64,000 bases of DNA, taken from the NCBI RefSeq assembly GCF_004298475.1, contig NZ_SCRP01000010.1:280922-344921 (forward strand), read 5' to 3'. The notes beneath the pieces are model-generated. The model was given only the letters and a program-made list of their open reading frames with translations. It was not told where the DNA came from and searched no databases. Source of the stretch: Paraburkholderia sp. GTDB lineage: Bacteria > Pseudomonadota > Gammaproteobacteria > Burkholderiales > Burkholderiaceae. Of the stretch, positions 52,704 through 57,096 are shown piece after piece (the stretch's first letter is position 1; each line of letters opens with the position of its first letter). Both the position numbers and the translations under genes were made by a program.

Positions 52704-52734
52704 TAAGCGCGGTGGTTGGGGATTCGCGGCGCAT

Positions 52735-52856
52735 TCAAGACTGCGTGGGCTGCACCGTATGAAACGCCTGCGGATCCTGAATCTGCGGCTCATGGCCAAA
52801 CTCGGGAAACTCGATGAGCGTCGCGTGCGGAATCGCCCATGCGCGGCCTTCGCGAG
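52735..52856 (-). pseudogene. Fragment of an alpha/beta hydrolase gene (3' end), frameshifted
   Basis: Positions 52760-52856 are about 94% identical to 56114-56211, the 3' part of the intact hydrolase gene at 56068, in the same orientation. A one-base deletion relative to the intact copy shifts the frame. After the repeat the sequence runs to a different stop and lacks the native C-terminus. No upstream part of the gene is present, so this is a detached duplicate. Confidence 0.8.
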
Positions 52857-53153
52857 ATAAGGGTTTGGGTGAAATATGGGTATGCCAGGGGCAGCCAAAT
52901 TGGTTGATCGCAAATTCCTGGAAAAGTCGCTTATCGAGCCGTTGCAGCCGATCAACCTCGGTTCCGCCTCAATGACCGTTTCCAAGTGTGGATTCAACCG
53001 GTTGATCTGATCGGAAAGTGATTGACATTGGCGGACACTCGCTACGAATTGTTGGAGCCAACGAGCGTCCGCCCAAGAAGGCAACCATAACCAGACCATA
53101 ACGAACTAGTTAGTGTTTGCGCGCAGCGGATTTGTGTTGATTGTGCTGGTTGA
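52857..53153. other. Left flank of the AT-rich islet, no firm gene
   Basis: About 300 bp of intermediate GC. A 44-aa rightward frame (52876-53010) and a leftward frame that runs into the hydrolase fragment are both open, but neither has a ribosome site or recognisable sequence. Both could be decayed genes. Confidence 0.4.
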
Positions 53154-54560
53154 TCAGAACAATCGTTTGTTTATATCACTCGCGAAATTCTTTCCGGCGC
53201 GGTGGTCGCTACTGGTTTTTGATACGGCGAAGGTATACCGACCATCTCCGTGAAAAGTAATTTTGTGGTGCTTCCCATCTTCCGACAAATCAAACCCTAA
53301 TCTAATAAGTGCACTTTTTATTTTTGAATCCATTTCGACGTACGATTTAAATATGGATTTGATTTCCCGTTTAATTTCCTCCGCCTCGCTTTTTGCTTCA
53401 TTGTGGTAAATTAGATCTTCTATAATGTGACGCTTTCTACTCCCAACTACCGTACTTCCGATATATCCATTCAGCGCCTCCAGGACAAATCCTTTTATTT
53501 CGTCTGTGTAAAAATCTTGCTCCAAGCCATAGGCTATAATTCCCTCATCCCTAGAGGGAGTCTCGCTGTTAAACTTGCGTAGCTCTGCGGTAAGCCGAAA
53601 AATTTCCCGCTCAGCCTCTTCCACTTTTTCCTGCTTTGCAGACAAATCGGCATCAAATGCCTTAACATAATCATCCAGCTCTGTTGAGCCAGATGATCGC
53701 AGTTTCTCCAGCCTGTTCTTCGAAATGCACTCTCTGAGATGCAGCCATGTACAATAGGTTTTTTGTCTGCGATTCGCAAGCGCCAATCTGATATCCCTGA
53801 AAATTGAATTCCGAAGCTTGCCTGGCGTATTATTTTCATCGGAAATGAAATACGATTTCCTGGCCGTGCTATCCGGCCAATACACTCCGATCGTCCCTCC
53901 GTAAACGTTCCTAGATGAGGTAAGATTCTTAAGTTTTATCGAGAAAATTCTACTTGGCTCAACGATTACATGCGCCATACCTGACAACTGCCTGGCAAGT
54001 TTTTCTGAATTTACCGCCTGTGCTATTTCAAATCCAGCGCTCACGTAAACTATTGGTAGGGAATTGCCGGCATTCCCTAATATCAACTTTGCCGCAATAT
54101 GTTCCTCGCCCAAGTTCAGAACTATCGGTTTGTCAGATACAGGCATTTGACCATCCATTCCGCCACCGATCGATCCCAGAACCTGTTTCACAAAATATGG
54201 TTTTCTGGGTTCCGGCAGATAACTCGCCGTCCGTAGAGCCTCGCAGCTAACCTGTATGCTGACCAAGTGTTGACTGGGTGTCTGCGAGGAAACAATTGTG
54301 GTAACCCATTCAATATCTCCATTCTCAAGGCGAGAATATCGAAATCCACCAATCTCGTAGTCAGGAAGTTCTGCGTAACCCGTCGCAACGCTTTCATTGC
54401 CAACTTTTATACTGCCTTCATGCGACCCAATTAAATCTGAGAGTTCCTCTTCCTTGATTTTCGTGTGGGGGCTTCCGGCTATCCACTTGCAGGCAAGCGC
54501 AAGAATCTCACTTACGGATGATTTTTCGTTTATTGGAAATTCCGTCGAATAGTTAATCAT
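53154..54560 (-). CDS. Uncharacterised 468-aa protein of an AT-rich islet
   Basis: The family is not recognised. No signal peptide or membrane helix is visible. Residues 1-270 look like one or two globular domains, including SLPIVYVSAGFEIAQAVNSE, LSGMAHVIVEPSRIFS and RNVYGGTIGVYWPD (218-230). A coiled coil spans about 300-332 (AKQEKVEEAEREIFRLTAEL). A helical block, YTDEIKGFVLEALNGYIGST then SRKRHIIEDLIYHN, covers 351-387. The C-terminal 55 residues (GFDLSEDGKHHKITFHGDGR, then YTFAVSKTSSDHRAGKNF) resemble the HicA/dsRBD-like fold. Codon use is AT-rich and unlike the neighbours, a sign of transfer. It starts 1 bp after a 76-aa ORF with no ribosome site of its own, suggesting coupling. An anti-phage or RNA-related role is only inferred from context. 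Confidence 0.8.
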   Translation of the reverse strand: MINYSTEFPINEKSSVSEILALACKWIAGSPHTKIKEEELSDLIGSHEGSIKVGNESVATGYAELPDYEIGGFRYSRLENGDIEWVTTIVSSQTPSQHLVSIQVSCEALRTASYLPEPRKPYFVKQVLGSIGGGMDGQMPVSDKPIVLNLGEEHIAAKLILGNAGNSLPIVYVSAGFEIAQAVNSEKLARQLSGMAHVIVEPSRIFSIKLKNLTSSRNVYGGTIGVYWPDSTARKSYFISDENNTPGKLRNSIFRDIRLALANRRQKTYCTWLHLRECISKNRLEKLRSSGSTELDDYVKAFDADLSAKQEKVEEAEREIFRLTAELRKFNSETPSRDEGIIAYGLEQDFYTDEIKGFVLEALNGYIGSTVVGSRKRHIIEDLIYHNEAKSEAEEIKREIKSIFKSYVEMDSKIKSALIRLGFDLSEDGKHHKITFHGDGRYTFAVSKTSSDHRAGKNFASDINKRLF

Positions 54561-54561
54561 T

Positions 54562-54792
54562 TTATATCGAATAATTTTTAGAAATTAAACCACCGAGTAA
54601 AATGTGCAATTTTCCGGGAATCCAATTGAGTTGAGGAAAATATGGAGCCGCTATTACAGCGCCCCCGTCAGCACATGCCAATAATACTAGATCATCTTTA
54701 CGGCAGTGAGCGATCGAAACTTGAGGAATCGATTGGTCGGTAGCTTTAGGACTGCCGTCACAGTTTGAAGTCGGGTCGGCACTTCCGTGCAT
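54562..54792 (-). CDS. Small ORF coupled to the 468-aa protein
   Basis: The 76-aa frame (MHGSADPTSNCDGSPKATDQ start; DDLVLLACADGGAVIAAPYF in the middle; ends LISKNYSI) stops one base before the next gene's ATG and shares its AT-rich composition at the 3' end. The ribosome site is weak (GTGAG). It could be a real partner, a leader peptide that couples translation, or the decayed 3' end of a longer gene. I do not recognise a family. Confidence 0.45.
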   Translation of the reverse strand: MHGSADPTSNCDGSPKATDQSIPQVSIAHCRKDDLVLLACADGGAVIAAPYFPQLNWIPGKLHILLGGLISKNYSI

Positions 54793-55465
54793 GACTCACA
54801 CTAGCCGTAATGCGGATTATCGCTATGGGTTGATCACGTACAACACGGATCATGCACGGAGCATCGAACCAACCGAAATCTCCCCCTTTGTGCCCACGCG
54901 CAGTTCACTATTTCGTATTCACAGAAACAAATTCTCATTTGCGACCTTTTCCGCCACCCCGGGCGACTATGTCAGTGTCAAGTATGTGAAATTTTTCCGG
55001 GCGGTGTACTCGTAACTGGAATTATCCCGCTGAAACGATGACTGGGATCATGCACAGACGAGTCAGAGGCTACAAATTTGGATATTAATTGGTCGACTAC
55101 TTTGGGGTTTCCGCCGACATTCGAATATTGGCGCGGACCTCTCCACGACACACCCATCGTGGCCGATCACTACCCGATGCGGTCAGCCGAAACCACCCCA
55201 AGTCCATCTTTTAATCGAAAAAACTGAGTGGCGAGTGTCCGAACCTCGTCGGCAATTCGGTGCCTCCACATCTCGACGGCGTACTTACTGATATCCGTTA
55301 GCAATCAAATCGACTTTCATTCTGCACCCGGGGCTACGGCGTTCTTCTCACGCGCCGCGCCTGCATAACTGCTGCCATTGCAGCCACCTCCCGGTAGTCG
55401 CAGTATGCTCAAACTCTGCTCAGAATCAGGGCATTGGCCTTGAAGCCTTAACGCCAAATACGTCA
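54793..55465. other. About 670 bp without a supported gene inside the islet
   Basis: Composition is intermediate between islet and host. Short frames on both strands lack start signals. The stretch looks like decayed accessory DNA; no transposase or integrase motif could be read. Confidence 0.45.
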
Positions 55466-55519
55466 AGACACAGCTTCCAAGCCGAAGGACAGGGGGTTCG
55501 ACTCCCCCCCGCCGCCCCA
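55466..55519 (+). other. tRNA/tmRNA-like 3' end (T-arm, acceptor strand, CCA)
   Basis: GGGGG-TTCGACT-CCCCC (55492-55508) is a perfect 5-bp T-stem with a canonical TTCRANT loop. It is followed by seven acceptor-like bases CCGCCGC, a discriminator and CCA at 55517-55519. No matching 5' half with D-arm and anticodon arm precedes it within tRNA distance. It therefore looks like the 3' end of a tRNA or tmRNA left at an integration site, or the 3' piece of a divergent tmRNA. Confidence 0.5.
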
Positions 55520-55602
55520 GCAACCATCCATTCAGCACAAGCGTTCCCAGGGCCCGTGCTACTCTTGGCGTCGATCCGACATCCATCGACGGAGAATGCA
55601 CG

Positions 55603-55995
55603 ATGCAGAAGATGCAAACCCGAACCACGCTTCATCTAATGGCCGCCGTGCTGCTTTCCACGAGCGTGTGCACGGCGCATGCCGCGAATCTCGGCTTTTT
55701 GCGCGACACGCCGGTCGCGGCGATGACGCAACAGGACAACGCCGCGCTACGGAAGGTGCTGCGCGAGTCGCTGGACCAGAAGGCGGACGGCGAATCGACG
55801 CAGTGGTCATCCCAAGCGCTGCGTCGCGGCACTCGGGTCGACGCAACAGTCACGCCGGACCGCACCACACATGACGGACCCCGTACCTGTCGCGAAACCA
55901 GCGTCGTTCTGCAATCCCGGGGCCAGTCGATGACATTGCACCCGCGTTTCTGTCGCGAGGGCGGCGGCGAATGGGTCTTTCAACGGACGCAATGA
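55603..55995 (+). CDS. Exported protein resembling 17-kDa surface antigens
   Basis: The 130-aa precursor has a Sec signal (LHLMAAVLLSTSVCTAHAAN, cleavage near AHA-AN). Mature residues 40-130 contain a short helix (QDNAALRKVLRESLDQKADG) and a Cys-paired C-terminal beta region (RTCRETSVVLQSRGQ to FCREGGGEWVF), similar in pattern to the RT0821/Lpp0805 17-kDa surface antigen family. GGAGA lies about 9 bases before the ATG. GC content is host-like although it lies between the repeat copies. Confidence 0.65.
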   Translation: MQKMQTRTTLHLMAAVLLSTSVCTAHAANLGFLRDTPVAAMTQQDNAALRKVLRESLDQKADGESTQWSSQALRRGTRVDATVTPDRTTHDGPRTCRETSVVLQSRGQSMTLHPRFCREGGGEWVFQRTQ

Positions 55996-56067
55996 GCAAA
56001 CAGGCGGTTTTGCCGGTCGCAAGCCACGCAGGAATATGCGCGGCGGGACTGAAAACCGCTTGATCGC

Positions 56068-57096
56068 TCAACGGTTTTCCGGCGCCGCTGCCAGCCAGGC
56101 CAGCAGCGCCTTGTGAAACGTCTGCGGATCCTGAATCTGCGGCGCATGGCCAAGCTCGGGAAACTCGATGAGCGTCGCGTGCGGAATCGCCCGCTGCGCG
56201 GCCTTCGCGAGTTCCGGGTAATGGCCGAGCTTCGCGCGCACTTCGGGCGGCGCGGCATCCTTGCCGATCGCCGTCGTGTCCTTGTCGCCGATCAGCAGCA
56301 GCGTCGGCGTCTTCAGCTGGCCGAACTCATAAACAACGGGCTGTGTGTAGATCATGTCGTAGAGCAGCGCCGAATCCCACGCCACCTGTTTCTTGCCGGG
56401 CCCGCGATACATCCCCGCCAGCATCTGCACCCACGGCTCGTACGACGGCCGCCACTGCCCCGCGTAATACGTGGCCTGCTCGTAGCGGCGAATGCCGTCC
56501 GCGCTCGTCTTCAGTTCGCGCGCATACCAGTCGTCGACGGATAACGACGGCACGCCCAATGCCTTCCAGTCTTCCAGGCCGATCGGGTCCGCGAGCACAA
56601 GCTGCTCCGTGTCCTGCGGATACATCAGCGCATAGCGAACGGCAAGCATGCCGCCCGTCGAATGGCCGATCATCGTCGCCCGCCCGATGCCGAGCGACGC
56701 GAGCAGCGCATGGGTGTTGCGCGCGAGCTGCTGGAAGCTGAACTGGTAGGCAGCGGGTTTGCTCGACTTGCAAAAACCGATCTGGTCCGGCGCGATCACA
56801 CGGTAGCCCGCCGATGCCAGTTCGCCGATCGTCTGCTCCCAGGTTGCAGCGCAGACGTTCTTGCCGTGCAGCAGGACGACCGTGCGGCCGTTGGGCTTCG
56901 TCGGCTCGACATCCATGTACGCCATGTGCAGCGACTGCCCCTGCGACGTGAACGCGAAGTCGTGAACCGTGTGCGGATAGCTGAACCCTTCGAGTTCGGG
57001 ACCGTAGGCAGGGCCATCGTCGGCCACGGCGGCGTGACTGAACGCAGCGGCGCAGCACACGGCAGCGAGAGCAGAAAGTTTGCGGATCGAGGTCAT
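56068..57096 (-). CDS. Exported alpha/beta hydrolase
   Basis: The 342-aa precursor has a signal peptide (MTSIRKLSALAAVCCAAAFS, cleavage near AVA). The hydrolase core shows VVLLHGKNVCAATW (oxyanion), nucleophile Ser146 in MIGHSTGGML, the acid in LLIGDKDTTAIG and the base His in FPELGHAPQIQDP. It probably acts on esters or similar bonds in the periplasm; the substrate is unknown. The start at 57096 is the signal-peptide Met; an open frame extends to 57375. About 98 bp of its 3' end is duplicated at 52760-52856. Confidence 0.88.
   Translation of the reverse strand: MTSIRKLSALAAVCCAAAFSHAAVADDGPAYGPELEGFSYPHTVHDFAFTSQGQSLHMAYMDVEPTKPNGRTVVLLHGKNVCAATWEQTIGELASAGYRVIAPDQIGFCKSSKPAAYQFSFQQLARNTHALLASLGIGRATMIGHSTGGMLAVRYALMYPQDTEQLVLADPIGLEDWKALGVPSLSVDDWYARELKTSADGIRRYEQATYYAGQWRPSYEPWVQMLAGMYRGPGKKQVAWDSALLYDMIYTQPVVYEFGQLKTPTLLLIGDKDTTAIGKDAAPPEVRAKLGHYPELAKAAQRAIPHATLIEFPELGHAPQIQDPQTFHKALLAWLAAAPENR

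Follow-up and report, generated by a model that had tools for sequence, protein, structure and literature searches.

A HEC-07-like protein with a HicA-like C-terminus, a candidate single-gene defence factor in Paraburkholderia sp.

The Locus

The window analysed here is a stretch of 64,000 nucleotides from Paraburkholderia sp. (contig NZ_SCRP01000010.1, positions 280,922 to 344,921), and the subject of this work is a gene on its reverse strand encoding a protein of 468 amino acids (aa), in the following named the window protein (Table 1). A first-pass annotation made from the letters alone had described an AT-rich unit of two genes at this place, and its description of the 468-aa open reading frame (ORF) and of the low GC content is correct: the latter is 0.44-0.47 across the gene versus 0.63-0.65 in the nearest flanks (1-kb windows). 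It is also right that a single base separates the TAA of a 76-aa ORF from the ATG of the 468-aa ORF, and that no Shine-Dalgarno-like sequence is found in the 40 bases upstream of the latter. However, the coupled two-gene unit that had been proposed is not supported and was rejected, since the 76-aa ORF is not conserved across 88 homologue loci. Using tblastn (E 0.1), no relative of it was found adjoining any homologue in these loci. The only match below E 0.1 beyond its own genome, when the 88 loci and the window were searched, is in locus L047 (E 4e-4) and falls in a 471-aa ORF approximately 6 kb away from the homologue, which looks like an esterase-acetyltransferase fusion. Moreover, a Shine-Dalgarno core is present upstream of just 32 out of 68 homologues checked, so that a missing one is common in the family and gives no sign of coupling to the 76-aa ORF. 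A 59-aa ORF (54978-55157) resembles the 76-aa ORF over 14 residues (57% identity; E 0.002 when only these two sequences are compared), which hints that degenerate repeats precede the 468-aa gene.

Table 1. Features of the locus, in window positions.
Feature	Position	Strand	Basis
Gene of the 468-aa protein, the whole unit: HEC-07-like body and HicA-like C-terminal domain	53154..54560	-	ORF, homologues, PADLOC
Residues 1-132, START/Bet v1-like fold (tentative)	54165..54560	-	predicted structure
Residues 133-264, thioredoxin-like fold (tentative)	53769..54164	-	predicted structure
Residues 272-333, helices including coiled coil; similarity to canonical HEC-07 ends here	53562..53747	-	AlphaFold2; hhalign span 20-335
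Residues 412-468 and stop, HicA-like alpha-beta-beta-beta-alpha domain	53154..53327	-	PADLOC, PHROGs, structure and profile comparisons
Codon of His431, at the position of the HicA motif histidine (GKH vs GSH)	53268..53270	-	conservation; profile alignment
76-aa ORF upstream of the 468-aa gene; not conserved, probably outside the unit	54562..54792	-	tblastn
Variable interval between two conserved flanking genes (oxidoreductase, hydrolase)	52704..56067		same-genus genome comparison
Displaced fragment of the 3' part of the hydrolase gene, left of the insert	52749..52864		sequence repeat
Matching stretch inside the resident hydrolase gene	56103..56219		sequence repeat

A HEC-07-Related Body with an Exchanged Tail

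The window protein had been thought to belong to no recognisable family, which is true for Pfam and NCBIfam, where nothing credible was found, but not for PADLOC and PHROGs. The PADLOC profile of HEC-07 (PDLC04161, PADLOC-DB 2.0.0) matches residues 85-328 with an E value of 1.9e-11, and 55 of 70 homologues match it as well. Only positions 108-364 of the 553 profile positions are covered by the window protein, whereas canonical HEC-07 proteins match near end to end (29-553 for L137). When the window family was compared with HEC-07 proteins using hhalign, residues 20-335 aligned with a probability of 99.1 (E 7.6e-19), and it is only over this range that six canonical HEC-07 proteins (L121-L124, L137, L138; 539-561 aa) and the 510-aa relative L126 can be aligned. 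The alignment ends at residue 335, and the C-terminal domain of canonical HEC-07 is not found in the window family. Both are single genes, but the window protein is shorter with its approximately 468 aa compared to 540-560 aa, and its tail is HicA-like where that of HEC-07 is NsnC-related. The designation HEC stands for “Hma-embedded candidate”. In the available passages of PMC12988326, the HECs are traced to a guilt-by-embedding preprint (Payne et al. 2024), and several of them, HEC-06 included, are described as active.

The evidence for the nature of the HEC-07 tail comes from relatives. The tail of L126 is related to NsnC of the Menshen system (PADLOC, E 2.2e-8), and L132 encodes a 290-aa NsnC-like protein (E 1.2e-51) that also resembles the HEC-07 tail weakly (E 1.2e-4). 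For the canonical L137, NsnC was not matched at E 0.01. In L125 (1498-2610) the HEC-07 tail sits on a different N-terminus. Among plasmids, 12 records match a HEC-07 protein, one of them over at least 80%, and 9 of the 10 matches listed begin at residue 310 or later. As tail and body occur apart in L125, in L132 and in the tail-only matches of plasmids, chassis and tail are separable. Profile comparisons and the predicted structure together show a HEC-07-related body that carries a HicA-like C-terminus where canonical HEC-07 has its NsnC-like domain.

In the AlphaFold model, the protein folds into several domains and contains a long coiled-coil-type helix, as expected from the multi-domain build with coiled coil that had been noticed before. 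The matches to START-like and thioredoxin-like structures are near the chance level of the tool, the N-terminal parts having been searched within the full model. At E 0.001, Foldseek matched the full model to nothing in PDB or among viral structures, and the C-terminus to nothing in PDB. Ten residues are invariant within the predicted thioredoxin-like part: D136, P169, Y172, S174, G194, A196, H197, E201, P202, and G222.

The HicA-Like C-Terminus

The C-terminus is matched by a HicA-like PADLOC model (E 2e-6, residues 417-465) and by phrog_2053 of PHROGs, a family of unknown function (E 5e-12, residues 407-466). The HicA-like match is also present in 39 of 70 homologues. In Pfam, HicA_toxin gave zero matches for the C-terminus of the window protein and weak ones, below the curated cut-off, for 9 of 56 homologue C-termini (best E 0.025). 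The domain has the alpha-beta-beta-beta-alpha fold resembling the double-stranded-RNA-binding domain (dsRBD) that is a trait of HicA, and its best VIA match is a HicA chain. With hhalign, the comparison to HicA scored 21.7, and 20 shuffles reached at most 11.0. The histidine of the HicA motif has a catalytic role; its counterpart His431 is kept in 72 of 73 sequences and falls, in the profile alignment, where true HicA domains have GSH. The C-terminal domain is probably of HicA type and in possession of its histidine.

Distribution and Genomic Contexts

Homologues are rare and scattered. In drawn samples they were present in 2 of 299 genomes of the family and in 7 of 369 of the class, the own genome included; two of these seven (G916, G976) hold canonical HEC-07 and two (G834, G908) gave pieces only. 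HEC-07 matches were found in 10 of 398 genomes of the phylum, again including the own one. A scan with two peptide patterns, which is no census, yielded relatives in 77 of 157 matches on genome contigs; for viral contigs (IMG/VR) the figure is 5 of 126. Plasmids carry relatives in 10 records, five of them covering at least 80% of the protein. A free phage gene was rejected, as 50,697 phage records have no match to the whole protein (E 0.01) or to its C-terminus, yet the five IMG/VR contigs do carry relatives. According to record titles, the family reaches Proteobacteria, Acidobacteria, Verrucomicrobiota, Planctomycetota, Campylobacterales and a Defluviitaleaceae bin, with many metagenome bins, and the copy of a Geothrix isolate is 58% identical to that of a Burkholderiales bin. 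When the labels Alpha-, Beta-, and Gammaproteobacteria are placed on a quick 73-row tree, they need 4, 6, and 7 changes, of which 3, 5, and 6, respectively, are forced by well-supported branches. The patchy taxonomy and the tree suit horizontal transfer without proving it.

Mobile elements are among the carriers. One homologue resides on mobilizable Klebsiella plasmids of 5.9 kb. A DNA match to this Klebsiella gene occurs in 34 of 5,426 E. coli genomes, in none over 80% of its length, and four of the 34 were inspected (L170-L173). In L170 and L172 the homologue is part of a lambda-like prophage and adjoins replication and recombination genes, in L171 it lies by two integrase genes and tRNA-Phe, and in L173 a short homologue adjoins IS1 near tRNA-Phe. 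The three full-length E. coli homologues match HEC-07 and have an identity of 33-34% with the window protein; for the prophage homologue WP_000873394.1 it is 33%. Six Rhodobacteraceae or viral copies (L062, L071, L072, L085, L086, L087) adjoin capsid-, portal-, and terminase-like genes, so that the gene of this subgroup looks like an accessory inside a prophage structural module. A serine recombinase is encoded near the homologue at five loci, and many further homologues adjoin housekeeping-like genes. A Rhodanobacter HEC-07 relative (L142, NZ_CP088926.1) has a site-specific integrase gene on either side and a CBASS phospholipase gene in the vicinity, and a Citrobacter plasmid (L004, NZ_OQ821053.1) has a broken homologue copy alongside a carbapenemase gene and transposase genes.

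The neighbour functions were recognised from sequence unless annotated by search, and some of the neighbour ORF calls are spurious. Both a conserved host operon and a metabolic family, either of which would have spoken against a defence function, were looked for. A conserved operon was rejected because no neighbour family is widely shared among the loci; recurrent ones belong to phage head modules (5-6 loci) or serine-recombinase elements (5), and the largest neighbour cluster, with members at 8 loci, resembles ABC-type ATPases. A metabolic family was rejected as well, since neither Pfam nor NCBIfam gave a credible one for the window protein and, for the 70 homologues, the best 25 of 81 Pfam families are mostly weak coiled-coil matches. 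For defence genes, 148 of 242 near and 148 of 191 far proteins (110-899 aa; near-duplicates L062, L071, L072, and L086 left out) were compared with PADLOC, and 127 models were matched by the near set and 38 by the far set; these figures count models and not distinct proteins, many models matching per protein and the best 25 being considered for each set, and no enrichment near homologues is claimed.

The Insertion Site

The bracketing of the gene by a duplicated host gene fragment could be confirmed: 90 nt of the hydrolase gene (56103-56192) recur at 52749-52838 with 92% identity, followed by 52840-52864 versus 56195-56219 with 88%. The site was surveyed in 58 genomes of the genus, the own one included, and 55 of the 57 others were tabulated (G150 and G315 left out). 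Both flanking genes are on one contig and strand in 51 of these 55; in the remaining four this is not so or one flank is unlisted. The distance between them is 18-267 bp in 35 of the 51 genomes and 0.77-25.6 kb in 16. In the best-matching genome (G304), the left side is common as far as 52940 and the right side begins to agree at 55464, with approximately 12 kb of other genes in between. Extra hydrolase pieces beside inserts were found in L101, L109, L113, and L118 among 20 stretches fetched (L101-L120). The cargo ORFs in 17 listed gaps, recognised from sequence, are mostly regulator-, transporter-, and oxidoreductase-like, and the other cargoes of the site look metabolic. Insertions between the oxidoreductase and the hydrolase gene recur in the genus; the site is a general one, and thus the bracketing duplication says little about the function of the 468-aa gene. 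There is no tRNA in the window that could serve as tRNA/tmRNA attachment site, and Rfam gave one match, at chance level. A T-arm-like stretch (55492-55508) has 16 of its 17 nt in common with a tRNA-Ser from this genome, and is perhaps an old attachment scar or due to chance.

Proposed Function and Alternatives

The analysis supports a one-gene unit, a HEC-07 chassis, an exchanged tail, and a mobile and patchy spread. We consider it likely that the window protein is a single-protein defence factor directed against phages or other mobile elements. The earlier idea of a defence or toxin locus is strengthened by the HEC-07-like body, the HicA-like domain, the mobile contexts and the patchy spread; the bracketing sequences belong to a general insertion site. 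With somewhat less confidence, but still on the side of probability, we favour a mechanism in which a HEC-07-like chassis carries an autoinhibited HicA RNase that acts by abortive infection. The body would hold the HicA domain inactive and thereby stand in for the absent HicB antitoxin, while its N-terminal part would detect a signal of infection. Release would then allow the HicA domain to cut RNA with the help of His431, which would halt translation so that the phage could not finish. It is further conceivable, although we put the chances slightly below even, that one chassis made of START-like, thioredoxin-like and coiled-coil parts is combined with interchangeable effectors, NsnC-type in canonical HEC-07 and a HicA RNase here, and that this chassis is a new phage sensor with built-in antitoxin.

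A different defence protein can be envisaged, in which the dsRBD-like C-terminus binds RNA or DNA to sense the invader, and the thioredoxin-like part (D136, H197, E201) is active. We regard this as unlikely, as the C-terminus is precisely the part that is exchanged versus the NsnC-like tail of HEC-07, which is expected of an effector, and as the HicA histidine is almost invariant. In its favour, invariant residues cluster most strongly at 133-222, the HicA fold is itself a double-stranded-RNA-binding fold (PMC10865869, in the passages available), and the likeness to HicA is remote.

Carriage by 5.9-kb Klebsiella plasmids and by prophages would also be compatible with a one-gene addiction or maintenance module, that is a self-inhibited toxin which penalises cells losing the element and plays no direct anti-phage role. 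Such a module appears improbable, because the loci have no separate labile antitoxin gene in common, chromosomal single copies are common, and HEC-07, the closest family with a name, is itself a candidate for defence. That the gene is decayed or non-functional cargo of the insertion site is very improbable, even though the interval also holds debris (the hydrolase fragment and an unrelated small ORF) and broken copies exist elsewhere (L134, L055, L004): the ORF is full length with the residues that are invariant in its family, and near full-length proteins were obtained from 69 of the 82 loci L006-L087.

If the window protein acts as a defence factor with a HicA effector, an unannotated protein becomes an immune module of one gene that can be put to the test, with a key residue already predicted. 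HicA and the Menshen-type NsnC, as two types of effector, would be linked through one chassis, which suggests a way to control a HicA toxin without HicB. The relatives in E. coli prophages allow easy study in laboratory strains.

Comparison with Known Systems

The window protein shares the alpha-beta-beta-beta-alpha domain and the histidine motif with the HicA toxin of HicAB, but its domain is fused to a body of approximately 400 residues. As regards a HicB-type partner, the loci have no neighbour family widely in common and the 76-aa ORF lacks conservation, although no HicB profile search was made. Of the 14 HicA contexts listed in the available passages of PMC10865869, the nearest is Class 14, which joins HicA to an SMC ATPase. 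Both are one-gene units with the HicA domain C-terminal to a coiled coil, but the window protein has no match to SMC or another ATPase at E 1; this comparison is by description in the text of that paper, and the two may overlap. PF06745 (“KaiC”) is weakly matched by 8 of 70 homologues (best E 0.0011), which we take as coiled-coil noise.

A protective anti-phage system with a HicA mRNA interferase domain has been described for E. coli MG1655 using DefensePredictor (PMC13092281, in passages). It shares the HicA domain, and E. coli carries relatives of the window family, but the passages do not name the protein and the comparison is by description only. If this system belongs to the window family, the defence role has already been shown. 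The available passages of a paper on RelE/ParE toxins (PMC11980606) do not mention the family. The literature search, outside of the Payne 2024 preprint and supplements, returned no paper recognisably dealing with it, which is no claim of absence from print, and the name HEC-07 turned up in an unrelated COVID paper only.

Menshen (NsnABC) is connected to the family via the NsnC-related tails of the HEC-07 relatives L126 and L132, whereas the window protein is encoded by a single gene and has no NsnC match at E 1. In L132 (1498-3233), the gene for the 290-aa NsnC-like protein overlaps or abuts a gene for an AAA_21/DUF3696 ATPase.
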